Shown here piece after piece: positions 18,873 through 25,106 of a stretch of DNA of 64,000 nt. Under the pieces are notes generated by a model that was not told the origin of the DNA, searched no databases, and saw only the letters and a list, made by a program, of their open reading frames with translations. A program made the position numbers and the translations under genes. The DNA comes from Circinella umbellata (taxonomy: Eukaryota > Mucoromycota > Mucoromycetes > Mucorales > Lichtheimiaceae): positions 248,001 to 312,000 of the forward strand of contig JAIWNF010000034.1 in the NCBI GenBank assembly GCA_025093555.1. Reading direction: 5' to 3'. Each line of letters opens with the position of its first letter. Positions within the stretch are counted from its first letter, which is position 1.

Positions 18873-21442
18873 ATGCTTCGGAATCTATGGTCTGTTCGTG
18901 TTCAATCGCGATCTCTTATGCCAACATTGCAATGTGTAAGACGATCTTATGCTACTCCAACGTCAGAACTACTTGAAGAACGTGACAAAAAATTAAACGA
19001 ATTGAACGTAAATACTTTTCTTCTTCCTTGTTTAAAATACATAAGATTTTAATATTCAATGTATAATAACAATGAATGTAAAATATGAATTATAATAATA
19101 GGAAGCGGTTCAACGTTGTATGGCAGATAAAAAGACATTAGAAGAACGTAGTGCCAAAGAAATTGCTACACAACGAGACTATGCTATTCAAAAATTTGCA
19201 AAAGACTTATTGGATACAGTCGATGTTCTTGGTATGGCCAAAGCATCCATTCCAGCTGATTTCCATACCAAAGAATCTATTAAAAAGCATACACCAGAAG
19301 AAATCATTGATAAAATGACCAATCTTTATACTGGTATGACCATGACCGAAAATGAATTGCTTAAGACATTGAAACGTCATGGGCTTGAAAAAGTAGATTT
19401 GCAATTGGGTCAAAAGTTTGATAAGGCCAAGGCTCAATCAGTGTTGAGCAAGGAAATTCCTGATCAACCAGCAGGTACTATTTTTACTATCAATAAACCT
19501 GGTTATGCTTTACGAAATCGTATCTTACGACTTGGTCAAGTTGGTGTAGTTGCTGAAAAGTAAGTTACAAGTCTCTGCATATAATTTAATAAGCTATCCG
19601 ATTTATTGAAAAAATATGATAGCGAGAGAAAAAAGAGAGTATCTGTTATATTGACTTGGAATTGAATATATTATTTCTAGGCGTACATTCGCTTCTCATG
19701 TACCTATCAAAACTGACGGATCAAAAACCACCTTATGTTTTTCAATTAACGATAAAGTTGGTGCTTTGGAAGATTGTTTGGCTACCATCAAGGCAATGGA
19801 TATTTCATTGACACGTATCGAATCGTAAGACTTTTTTTTTCTTTTTCATTCTGCATAGAGTAAATAATTATTTTGGATTGATATAAAATTGGATATAACT
19901 ATTGCAAATTGTGGAGAAACGTGATTTAATCTCAATAATTATAAACATAGACGACCAAGTCGTACGGAAGAATGGGACTATGATTTTTTTGTGGATTTAA
20001 ATGCACGCGACGGAATTCAAGTTAATAAAGTAGTCGATGGACTTCGTCAGCATACGACAGATGTAAGAATTCTTGGTCCTGATGGTGCTCAAGGTAAAAA
20101 TTATTTAAAAGGCGGGATTAAACAGAAGGGAAAGAAAGACATCTATGCTAATAACCACCCGTGGGAAAAATCGTGGGAAAATTTCTGCAGATAGTGTACC
20201 ATGGTTCCCACGTAAGATGTCAGATCTTGATACATTTTCTGAAAAGGTTCTCGAAATGGGAGAAGAATTGAGTATGTATATTATCTTTTATTAATATTAT
20301 TATTATTAAGTATAATTACGTAACATACACACGGCTAAAAATATATTAATTTAAATTGGCAATCTTTCTTTCCTGTCATTAATAAGGTTCGGAACATCCT
20401 GGTGCTAATGATCCAGCTTATCGTGCCCGTCGAGCTGATATTACACGTATGGCAAAAGCTTTCCGTACAGGTGATCCTGTTCCTCGTGTTGAATATACAC
20501 CTGAAGAAAATGCAGCATGGGGTCAAGTATATAATCGATTGACGCAAATGTATAAAACACATGCTTGTCGTGAACACCAGTATGTATTCCCACTACTGGA
20601 ACAAAATTGTGGATATAGTGATAAGGAAATTCCTCAATTGGAAACTGTTTCACGATTTTTAAAGGATTGTACTGGTTTTCAAATACGTCCTGTCATGGGA
20701 TTACTGACTAGTCGTGACTTTTTGAATGCTTTTGCATTCCGAGTATTCCATTCTACTCAATATATTCGTCACCCTTCAAAACCTTTTTATACCCCTGAAC
20801 CGGATGTATGCCATGAATTGTTGGGTCATGCACCTTTGGTAAGTTTTATCCATTTTGTGTGCTATTTTATTAATAATAATAATGTATATTTAGCATTATA
20901 TGTTGCATATATCAATACAATTGTACTAATAACATGTTAAATGATTATACATATACATGTAGTTTGCTAATCCCGATTTTGCCGACTTTTCACAAGAAAT
21001 TGGATTAGCGTCCTTGGGTGCGTCTGATGAAGATATTAAAAAACTCGCTACCATCTTTTGGTTCACTGCTGAATTTGGCGTATGTCGTCAAGGAGATGAA
21101 CTCAAGGCTTATGGTGCTGGGTTGTTAAGTTCATTTGGCGAATTAGAATACTGTTTATCTGATAAACCTGAGCATCGTCCCTTTGAACCTGAAAAGACCG
21201 CCATTACAGAATATCCTATTACAACATTTCAACCTGTCTATTATATTGCTGATTCTTTCAAGGATGCACAAGAAAAAGTACGGGATTTTGCTTCTCGAAT
21301 GAATCGTCCATTTTCTGTACGATACAATGCCTTAACACAATCCATTGAGGTGTTGGATTCCAAGGATAAGGTAGTTCGATTTGCTAAAAGCATTAGAGAT
21401 GATATGAAAACTTTAACTACCGTGATTGAATCACTTCATTAA
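18873..21442 (+). CDS. Fusion of mitochondrial GrpE (Mge1-like) and aromatic amino acid hydroxylase
   Basis: Seven exons (18873-19007, 19102-19559, 19681-19824, 19951-20093, 20191-20271, 20387-20838, 20963-21442) join in frame to 630 aa. Residues 1-40 look like a mitochondrial presequence ([15 protein letters not shown]). Residues 45-197 match Grp[36 protein letters not shown], then [20 protein letters not shown]. Residues 199-630 match phenylalanine hydroxylase: an ACT-like regulatory domain ([18 protein letters not shown]), then the catalytic domain with iron ligands in [10 protein letters not shown] (His463, His468) and FWFTAEFG (Glu508). The hydroxylase half has no in-frame ATG of its own before the ACT domain. 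The stop that would end GrpE alone, TAA, overlaps the GTAAGT donor of intron 2. GrpE is the nucleotide-exchange factor for mitochondrial Hsp70; the hydroxylase uses O2, Fe(II) and a pterin. Two overlapping genes remain possible. Confidence 0.82.
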
Positions 21443-21679: not shown

Positions 21680-24600
21680 TTAATAATTACCACCTGAAAA
21701 ACGTTGCACACGACTTGTAGGAGAAGCACTATGAGCAGGAGGGGGTGGTGGAGGTGATCTAGAGTGGCGTGGAGATGATGTGTTACTATGGAATGGAGGA
21801 GGAGGAGGGGAGGATGGAGGTTGATAGTATGTAGGTGGTGGATATGGAGGGGCTGGATTGTTTGTTATGGGTCCATTATAGGCTGTAGGATCCACCCACC
21901 CACCTGATGATCCTTGATGACCTGGTGGTGGAGCTGGTGGTACGGATGTTATATGATCACTGTTATATGCCATTGGATTATTATTATAGTAACCTGCAGG
22001 TGGTGGTGCCACTTGACTATTATTTTGAAGTGCTCGTCGACGCGTCTTGTATGCAGTTAGACCAGGCCAACAACAGCAGCCTCTTAAGAAACATCGAATC
22101 AAAATGAACAATAGAATAAGTGCTAAGACAACACCAACTGGAATAGCAATTTCCTTATTATCTTGAAGCCATGACAGTGCTCGATTACTTGAACTACCAT
22201 AATCACATGAACCATCTTTACATCGACCACCACTTCCACAAGGTGTTCCATCCAGAAAGTTGCCATTGAATATGGTACAACCGTGACCGCTTGAGCTGGA
22301 ACAAGCGATTTGACAAGTTGAACCCATGGCAGAACATGAACTTGTAATGGATAATTCGGATCCACGCTCTCTACATTGTTGATCGCGCGACGTACATTGT
22401 CCTGATGCACATTGTAAACCATTACTACTGCCACACGATGTTCCATCATCTACATAGGCATCCGCCGGGCAATCACCGGTGGTACCATCGCAGTGTTCAG
22501 GAATATCACACTCACTTTGTGCTTCACGACAGACAGTATTCTGAGGCCGTAATTGACAGTTATCACAACATAAATCAGTAGCATCACTATAGTGTTACAG
22601 GGTAAATGTTAACTGAATAGTGTTTAAGCGTCGAAATTAACTCTTTTTTTTTTACAAAAATGTTTAAGCTTACTCGCAAGTAGCACCGTTTATAAATTTA
22701 CAAGTGCTAGAATCACAGCAAGAACTACTTTGTCCTCCTGGATCACAGTCTTCTCCTTCTTCCTTAATACCATTACCACACATTTGCAATGTTTGCACAG
22801 TACGACTACCAGGTGCTATAGTAATAAAAAGATTACTTAAATTTTTAGTGGGCGAGTTATCGTTCAAATTGTTGAGGTATCGTCAAAGGTTGTTTGCCCT
22901 TTACTTACCCTCCAAGCATGATCCCATGGATGAGAATACTCCACAAATAGTATTAATCGAGCAGGGACTGAATGATTCTGTTGACACGTTATTAGTGGGG
23001 TTCATGATATATGTACCACCAGCATCACATTGTGTATCACTCAAAGGACAGCATTGACATGATGACCCACTACAAGGACATGAATCAGATGTACAATCAT
23101 GAATAGCACCTGTAGGTAGCACAAATAATTTTCCATATAAGAACAAGACGTGATTATTAGTATAATTGTCATTCTTTTCAATGGTTACTGTTGTACTTAC
23201 CAAAACCATGACCAATTTCATGTGCTACAACTTTCCATTCATCACGAACTAATATGAACAAAAAAATTGTTTCATGTTATTCGAAATATACAATAAATCA
23301 TTTCTTCTGGTGAATATATATATATATATATAATATGATGTTACTCTCTACTTACGAACTGAAGAAACACCGGTACCCGATACATATTGTGTTTTGCCAC
23401 CAGCAGATTGCTGGTTTACGCCCATATTACAAAGTTGCTGTAACCAAGCAACACCGACCTCAACACCAGTTCTATAGTAGTCAATTATGACAAATAATCA
23501 CCATTCAATTAATACTAATATATACGGCTATATTTCCTTGTAAAAGAAATAATGTCTTACGCGCAATTCGTCATCAAGTGCCATAAACCAGCACCATCAT
23601 CACTCATATAGGATCTCCATAAGCTAAAATCGCTTAAACGGTCACTAATAGTATAACTGTTGGAGCAATCTCGGTTCCAGTCCGGCTCTGGTGTAGAAGG
23701 ACAAGTTTCAGGCAAGATTGTGATATTGATCAAACCTAATTGAATGTTGAACGTATGCTCATAAACTCCTGAAGCAGTATTCCAATTATTGATTATTTGT
23801 GTTCGGGCATCTTCTACTGAACCATAATGCCGAGTATATGTACAATCGGCAGCAACACCCATATAATTAACTATATAAATATTCAAGAAAAAAAAAAAGA
23901 AAGGTTAATATTCATGTTACACGGGCATTTCTGGGAGAAAAAAGGAGAAATAAATTTACTTAGAGTTGAAGTTGGGCATCCACTTGTGTCTTGTCGTTTC
24001 GTTAAACTATGGGTAGTATCAAAATTGGGGGTGTAGATACCCAATTCACCAGAAGCTGGATGACTCGAACGTAATACTGGATGTTGAAACTGATTTCCAT
24101 TGTTGAATGCTAAACGATCAAATCCACATTCAGTATTATGCGTATCATCATGATTGTTGTCTTGAGGTGAGACAAGAGTTGTATCAGAGTCACGATAAAT
24201 AACCATGTGGGAATTATCCTGACTGGTTAATTCAGCATCATCTTGACGCTTGGTAAGCTTATAATTGCTTGTCGTTTTAATGTGATACATGTCTCCATTC
24301 ATTGTAAATGTTCCTTCAAATACTGGATATTCCATGCCGGGTCTAAAAAATATGTTAATGTTATTTATCAATCCCATTTATTATTATCATGCATTTTAAT
24401 TGGTCTTGTTTTAATTAACATAACGATAATAATCAAGATTCATAATCATTATCATTATCACCAATAAAGTTTTTCTTACTTGGTTAAATCTTGTCGAAGG
24501 ATTACTCGTGCCCAACCAAGGTGTTGTTCAGAGTTCATAAAATCACTTTCGTCATCTAGTATAACACCGGCTCGGTCCCGTTTCCATCGGTGTTGTGTAT

Positions 24601-25106
24601 TTGAGTCACCCACGACGTAACCTCGATAGATTCGAAACTGATCATGTGTAAGAGGAATACCCTGACCATTACGCCATGTTACTGCATTAGGATGAAACAG
24701 ATTTAGATTAGGTTGCAAATGAAGATTAATGGTTTTATTGTAAGCTTGTAAAGATAACCGTAAAATGTCATCGTGTTCAATGGAGTGGCTAGTAGGTGTA
24801 TATGCAGGGTTCTTTGTTAAGCTTCGTTTTTTATAAAAATTCTCAGGGCGAGGGGCTATATCGAGCTGGACTCCCTTAAGCGGTTCGACATGTAATAGTT
24901 GCCTATTGTTTACACTATGACCTATAAATTATAATTATACAAATCAACAGCCCCCTAATTGTATCAATATCGACTGCATTATGCAATTTATTGAAATGTT
25001 TGATTAACAATTAATTTGACTTATTACCGGCAACAAGATGAAGAAGGATTGTAAAGAGCAGTAATATTAAAGTTGCTGTATTCTTATTGATATATAATTG
25101 AATCAT
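21680..25106 (-). CDS. ADAM-family membrane metalloprotease (M12B reprolysin plus disintegrin)
   Basis: Nine exons (25106-25028, 24921-24480, 24342-23960, 23870-23561, 23471-23356, 23248-23201, 23109-22909, 22815-22674, 22586-21680) join to 875 aa. A signal peptide (ATLILLLFTILLHLVA) precedes a prodomain with two basic sites (WKRDR, TKRQD). The reprolysin domain carries the zinc motif HEIGHGFGAIHD (His453, Glu454, His457, His463), split between exons 6 and 7. A disintegrin-like Cys-rich region follows, with CDIPEHCDGTTGDCPADAYV. One transmembrane helix lies at about 720-740, then a cytoplasmic tail of about 130 residues, very rich in Pro with several PPPPPP runs. Fungal ADAMs are known but few are characterised. 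The tail could bind SH3 or WW domains. The gene looks intact. Confidence 0.9.

Follow-up and report, generated by a model that had tools for sequence, protein, structure and literature searches.

A GrpE-phenylalanine hydroxylase fusion in Circinella umbellata and other Lichtheimiaceae, a candidate mitochondrial polyprotein

The window, i.e. the whole 64-kb stretch of Circinella umbellata DNA analysed here, raises the question of whether a mitochondrial GrpE and a phenylalanine hydroxylase (PAH) are encoded as one protein and, if so, whether the two halves stay together. We identified a gene on the forward strand (positions 18873-21442) whose seven exons join in frame to 1893 nt, encoding 630 amino acids and a stop codon. 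The predicted chain consists of a mitochondrial presequence, GrpE, ACT and Biopterin_H, in that order. Exon 1 (18873-19007) carries the start codon, the presequence (approximately residues 1-26) and the first GrpE residues, and its RSYAT codons (residues 24-28; 18942-18956) mark the presumed presequence cleavage site R-x-Y↓A-T. Exon 2 (19102-19559) encodes the GrpE domain (PF01025), a divergent second copy with sequence matches to chains 9blt and 9qid of GrpE protein homolog 1. Exon 3 (19681-19824) encodes a linker and the start of the ACT domain, and exon 4 (19951-20093) the remainder of that domain. The catalytic hydroxylase domain begins in exon 5 (20191-20271) and continues through exon 6 (20387-20838), which includes H463 and H468 of the HELLGH motif, to the stop in exon 7 (20963-21442), which includes E508. 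These three residues, the presumed iron ligands of a 2-His-1-Glu site by analogy with human PAH, are invariant across an 11-row alignment.

Domain searches are consistent with this organization. The Pfam GrpE match (residues 32-195) scores 108.5 bits against a cut-off of 25.8 and the Biopterin_H match (residues 297-626) 549.1 bits; the ACT match (residues 219-267) is weak, at 19.3 bits and below the cut-off of 27. TIGR01268 is the best model for the PAH half and exceeds the tryptophan and tyrosine hydroxylase models by more than 125 bits, with a score of 631.1 bits that is below the equivalog cut-off of 704.8, in a scoring that covered the fused protein. The exon joins and Pfam matches thus bear out the in-frame chain put forward in the preliminary description, whose coordinates and sequence statements were correct.

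All six introns are GT-AG introns (94, 121, 126, 97, 115 and 124 nt, in order), each with a match to the branch-point pattern YTNAY located 8-60 nt before its 3' end, and introns 2 and 6 share a consensus-like GTAAGT donor. Intron 2 (19560-19680), which divides the two halves, runs from GTAAGT to CTAG with the branch-point match TTGAC, and at 121 nt it is similar in size to the others, as had been claimed. The earlier claim that the hydroxylase half lacks an in-frame ATG ahead of its ACT domain also holds in the sequence, as none was found from the end of GrpE to that domain. Splicing of exon 1 to exon 3 breaks the frame, ruling out skipping of exon 2 as a source of GrpE-less PAH, so that with these exons the hydroxylase can be read only via GrpE. 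The 5' splice site of intron 2 contains a TAA (19561-19563), and retention of the intron would yield a complete, free GrpE of 198 amino acids ending in VGVVAEK. Taken as sequence features, one presequence precedes two complete proteins in a single frame, which is the arrangement of a polyprotein.

The stop in the GrpE reading frame could alternatively indicate two adjacent genes, with the fusion an artefact of the gene model and PAH transcribed from its own promoter with a small first exon. The unfused Mucorales PAHs that we inspected do start at their own methionine just ahead of ACT, and a first exon that would be in frame can be derived by hand (ATG at 19616, followed by a 42-nt intron at 19639-19680). 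That intron, however, would be less than half the length of any other intron in the gene (94-126 nt), and the resulting peptide, MIAREKRE, is unlike any PAH start among those compared. Merged-looking models do occur among deposited sequences, such as a Mortierella zinc-knuckle-GrpE model (P0006), and the relatives described below are themselves deposited gene models. The distribution of the joint across genera nonetheless makes a two-gene arrangement very unlikely.

The preliminary description had proposed a search for other proteins with both GrpE and Biopterin_H domains. Our search (query residues 46-245, proteins of approximately 346-1100 aa, best 8000 candidates scored) returned 11 matches, of which four have both domains in deposited models: Phascolomyces articulosus, Fennellomyces, Zychaea mexicana and Lichtheimia ornata. 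These genera and Circinella are all classed in the Lichtheimiaceae. The same four were the only GrpE-bearing proteins among the best 120 of 204 PAH relatives, and no fused Circinella protein was among the matches listed in the fusion search or among those best 120. A presequence is present in four of the five fused models, the Zychaea model beginning within GrpE, and R-x-Y-A-[TS] occurs near the N-terminus of all four with a complete N-terminus. In the alignment the junction VGVVAEK^R is identical in all five proteins and is followed by x-[FYM]-A-[STA], despite GrpE halves that are as low as 50% identical. The linker lacks methionine in four of the five sequences, Lichtheimia being the exception.

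The five fused GrpEs cluster in a tree of 46 fetched GrpE rows chosen by hand (support 99/96), and the five fused PAHs cluster in a tree of 32 chosen PAH rows (support 100/99). A single origin is the simplest reading of these two groupings; the GrpE tree carries a long-branch warning for several rows, including that of Lichtheimia, and places the duplication without good support. Because the same architecture and joint recur in four other genera, the fusion is not a chance event. We rejected an annotation or frame artefact as the main reading, given the shared joint in five genera and the linker without methionine in four of the five, and conclude with high confidence from the sequences that the GrpE-PAH fusion is real. 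The preliminary description knew of no protein that couples GrpE to a hydroxylase. Annotated models do exist in the four other Lichtheimiaceae genera, although a title and abstract search of open-access publications gave no paper on such a fusion.

The Circinella umbellata genome (50.8 Mb) contains one PAH locus and two GrpE loci. The second of these, on a separate contig (C130), encodes a canonical GrpE with the C-terminal end VGVVADTQ, and a separate canonical GrpE was also found in Phascolomyces, Lichtheimia and Zychaea. Within each of four species, fused and canonical GrpE are 44-55% identical. Between Circinella and Phascolomyces the fused GrpE is 77.3% identical, whereas the canonical GrpE reaches 89.5% and the PAH half 93.8%. 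A reference set of 29 GrpEs defines 63 conserved columns, of which the fused copies keep a mean fraction of 0.737 and 12 unfused second copies 0.839, the reference and second-copy rows having been chosen by hand. Residues missing from all five fused rows include N, two R and the histidine within DPNxHQA. One of the lost R residues is E in four fused rows, and at the position of the conserved H all five have A, whereas all 12 unfused second copies keep H. The strict GrpE signature ([FL][DN]...H.A...G[FY]..., a PROSITE pattern) matches none of the five fused copies, 2 of the 12 unfused second copies and all 29 members of the reference set, which includes two Absidia rows (P0071 and P0085) that are labelled as, or may be, second copies. 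By these comparisons the fused GrpE, hereafter GrpE2, is a decaying duplicate that diverges faster than the canonical copy, and its residue losses indicate that it is probably a poor nucleotide exchange factor.

GrpE2 nevertheless retains most of the conserved columns (the mean of 0.737 over 63), its Pfam match is well above the cut-off, and the reading frame has been preserved in five genera. These observations would fit a mitochondrial fusion that is never cut, with GrpE2 serving as a dimerization or Hsp70-docking module of PAH. We consider such an uncut protein fairly unlikely, given the loss of the conserved N, R (mostly replaced by E) and H, the existence of a separate canonical GrpE, and the resemblance of the joint to an MPP site in all five proteins.

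After VGVVAEK, the five fused proteins read RTFAS, RTFAS, RSFAT, RSYAA and RGMAT. In Circinella the RTFAS codons (residues 199-203; 19682-19696) form a putative internal MPP site, KR-T↓F-A-S, which resembles KR-A↓YSS of Neurospora Su9. With the preceding K, the junction reads KR-x-[FYM]-A-[STA] in all five; the motif was defined after the junctions had been seen, so the five matches arise by construction and the independent part is the contrast between N-terminal and internal positions. Of 237 other GrpE and PAH proteins, 32 have [KR]Rx[FYM]A[STA] within their N-terminal 60 residues, and the motif was not found once in the 65,296 residues that lie beyond residue 60 in these 237. In 31 of the 32 the protein is a GrpE precursor with the motif at the end of its presequence. 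The remaining one is a protein of the PAH list (P0237) with a basic, repetitive, presequence-like N-terminus containing several R-H-F-A-T-like units. Several observations count against cleavage, and a motif by itself does not prove it. The strict motif is present in the N-terminus of just two of the four complete fused proteins. A looser motif, R-x-[FYLMIW]-[AS]-[ASTGV], has two matches in folded C-terminal PAH stretches of each fused protein, and internally it occurs at 110 places in other PAH-list proteins versus none in the GrpE list. The helix acting as presequence ahead of the internal site would have to be GrpE's own C-terminal stretch, and one acidic residue adjoins the site.

Cleavage by MPP within a chain has been described. 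The second MPP site of Neurospora Su9 is reported to be KRAYSS, the best P1'-P3' residues for MPP are given as FHT or FST, and both the Su9 site and engineered RRAFHT linkers are described as being cut by MPP inside a polyprotein (PMC10450427). The linker RGGGRRAFHT, best in tandem, was cleaved within yeast mitochondria, and in E. coli containing a reconstituted MPP the linker RGGGRRAFST gave better release (PMC10450427). The same account reports poor cutting in short glycine linkers when K replaces R at -3, and less efficient cleavage of single than of tandem engineered sites in some constructs (PMC10450427). On balance, we regard internal cleavage by MPP at the junction as somewhat favoured by the sequence. 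The MPP-like junction implies that the GrpE and PAH halves may not stay together. The preliminary description had suggested that the fusion would link the enzyme to the machinery of import or folding; the separate canonical GrpE, the lost residues and faster divergence of GrpE2 and the MPP-like junction argue against this, and a lasting tie of PAH to Hsp70 is not likely.

The TAA inside the intron 2 donor allows for two products, with spliced RNA giving the GrpE-PAH precursor and retention of intron 2 giving free GrpE2, a scheme that would fit either cleavage or its absence. Retention would yield a complete GrpE ending in VGVVAEK, and similar C-termini, AEKT and AEKP, are seen in two second GrpE copies of Apophysomyces that are not fused. 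However, a phase-2 GTAAGT donor after AA always creates this stop, so that the TAA may be incidental and an output of GrpE2 alone is possible only; GrpE2 is also in decay. We consider dual output unlikely.

The explanation that we moderately favour, from the sequence features above, is that the gene encodes a mitochondrial polyprotein in which PAH reaches the matrix attached to a decayed GrpE duplicate, from which MPP probably releases it. The precursor would be imported via its N-terminal presequence. MPP, perhaps followed by Icp55, a possible processing step after MPP, would cleave the N-terminus and cut again at KR-T↓FAS. The released matrix PAH would begin FASHV or ASHV, and the role of GrpE2 would mainly be that of an import carrier.

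The neighbourhoods of the two GrpE genes suggest how such a gene may have formed. An ADAM-type metalloprotease/disintegrin gene, its exons partly traced, adjoins the fusion on the reverse strand (21683-24928), and an ADAM paralogue adjoins the canonical GrpE on C130 (310161-313454). As the order and orientation are the same at both, the loci appear to be duplicates of a single block. No PAH remnant was detected in 70 kb at the canonical locus (best E 1.4). In a comparison of the 64-kb window with 70 kb of C130 (E 1e-6, frames of at least 40 aa), only GrpE and ADAM matched, and we set aside a wider duplicated block at this threshold.

GrpE and PAH lie on equal-sized contigs, paired by species name and by eye, in 6 of 18 unfused species or strains, the 18 being those of the Mucorales, Umbelopsis and Calcarisporiella that could be paired by name. 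The six are Umbelopsis ramanniana, Umbelopsis WA50703, Apophysomyces ossiformis, Apophysomyces BC1034, Cunninghamella blakesleeana and Benjaminiella. In Apophysomyces BC1034 it is the canonical GrpE that shares a contig with PAH. Contigs are unequal in Phycomyces, Hesseltinella, Backusella, Blakeslea, Calcarisporiella, Radiomyces, Halteromyces, Spinellus, Pilobolus, Parasitella, Helicostylum and Choanephora, and the same holds for eleven more pairs that could be named in other groups of fungi. The check used the best 120 of 252 GrpE rows and the best 120 of 204 PAH rows, and may therefore miss second copies; a cluster may hold several species, and three of the six matching contigs exceed 1.7 Mb. 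The equal-sized contigs in 6 of 18, including two Umbelopsis, weakly suggest that GrpE and PAH were neighbours before the fusion.

We propose that GrpE and PAH were neighbours in an ancestor and were duplicated together. One copy would have retained the canonical GrpE and lost PAH, while in the other the end of GrpE would have turned into a 5' splice site that links GrpE2 to PAH, and the PAH start methionine would later have been lost. At the P1' position of the junction Lichtheimia has methionine, near where unfused PAHs start, which could start a free PAH. We infer that this methionine once started PAH and that F or Y has taken its place in the four other proteins. A more specific scenario, which we advance only tentatively from the sequences, is that a spare GrpE is now a disposable import carrier, with the splice formed at the stop site, the PAH methionine turned into P1', and intron retention still yielding GrpE2.

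No presequence was seen in any of 18 unfused PAHs examined from the Mucorales and Umbelopsis, 17 of which start no more than 19 residues from ACT. The Pilobolus PAH is longer at its N-terminus, with five acidic and two basic residues among its first 40. Among 33 further PAHs, mostly of other fungi, seven (P0185, P0199, P0200, P0216, P0225, P0228 and P0230, from chytrid-type and other early fungi) have a long, basic N-terminal extension with no acidic residue in the first 40. These extensions suggest that other early fungi, too, may have a mitochondrial PAH. Two Ambispora PAH models (P0176 and P0180) also contain alpha/beta-hydrolase domains and may be another fusion or merged gene models. A partial Bifiguratus PAH (P0158) begins ARRGLATVTQ, much as a presequence or some other fusion might end. 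Rhizopus, Syncephalastrum, Dichotomocladium and Circinella have no PAH among the best 120 of 204, although GrpE was found in each; this may reflect loss, missing models or lengths beyond the search range.

The in-frame fusion and N-terminal presequence make mitochondrial phenylalanine hydroxylation probable, as the preliminary description had proposed, and the PAH half of the fusion is likely mitochondrial. PAH relies on pterin-4a-carbinolamine dehydratase to recycle its cofactor. We found a single gene for this enzyme in the genome (L005, reading frame from 1354). The predicted protein begins MVSFIALGRRPLIQNTMNIQKSFLSTL, a presequence-like stretch with three basic and no acidic residues in its first 30, and this N-terminus is at most compatible with a mitochondrial pterin cycle.

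Yeast Arg5,6 is described as having one presequence and being cut by MPP at its N-terminus and internally (PMC8835746). The GrpE-PAH chain likewise has one presequence and two proteins, with MPP cleavage here only predicted; unlike Arg5,6, which comprises two enzymes of one pathway, it joins a chaperone co-factor to an unrelated enzyme. MPP polyproteins are already known from Arg5,6. Like Mge1 and GRPEL1, the GrpE-PAH chain has a presequence and a GrpE domain, but it differs from them in its lost residues, in the PAH behind it and in the canonical GrpE alongside. It resembles the eukaryotic tetrameric PAH in having ACT and Biopterin_H across their whole length, with TIGR01268 as its best model, and differs in its N-terminal GrpE and presequence and in its score below that model's cut-off. 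A Euglena mitochondrial proteome places PAH-catalysed tyrosine formation among its amino acid reactions, with no mention there of a GrpE fusion (PMC7403612).

If our interpretation is correct, the Lichtheimiaceae would have a natural mitochondrial polyprotein beyond the arginine pathway. Related genera would then show how a splice between neighbouring genes can move a metabolic enzyme to another compartment in one step. Phenylalanine hydroxylation, together with the biopterin recycling that it requires, would be located in fungal mitochondria, a prediction that could be tested in culturable moulds.
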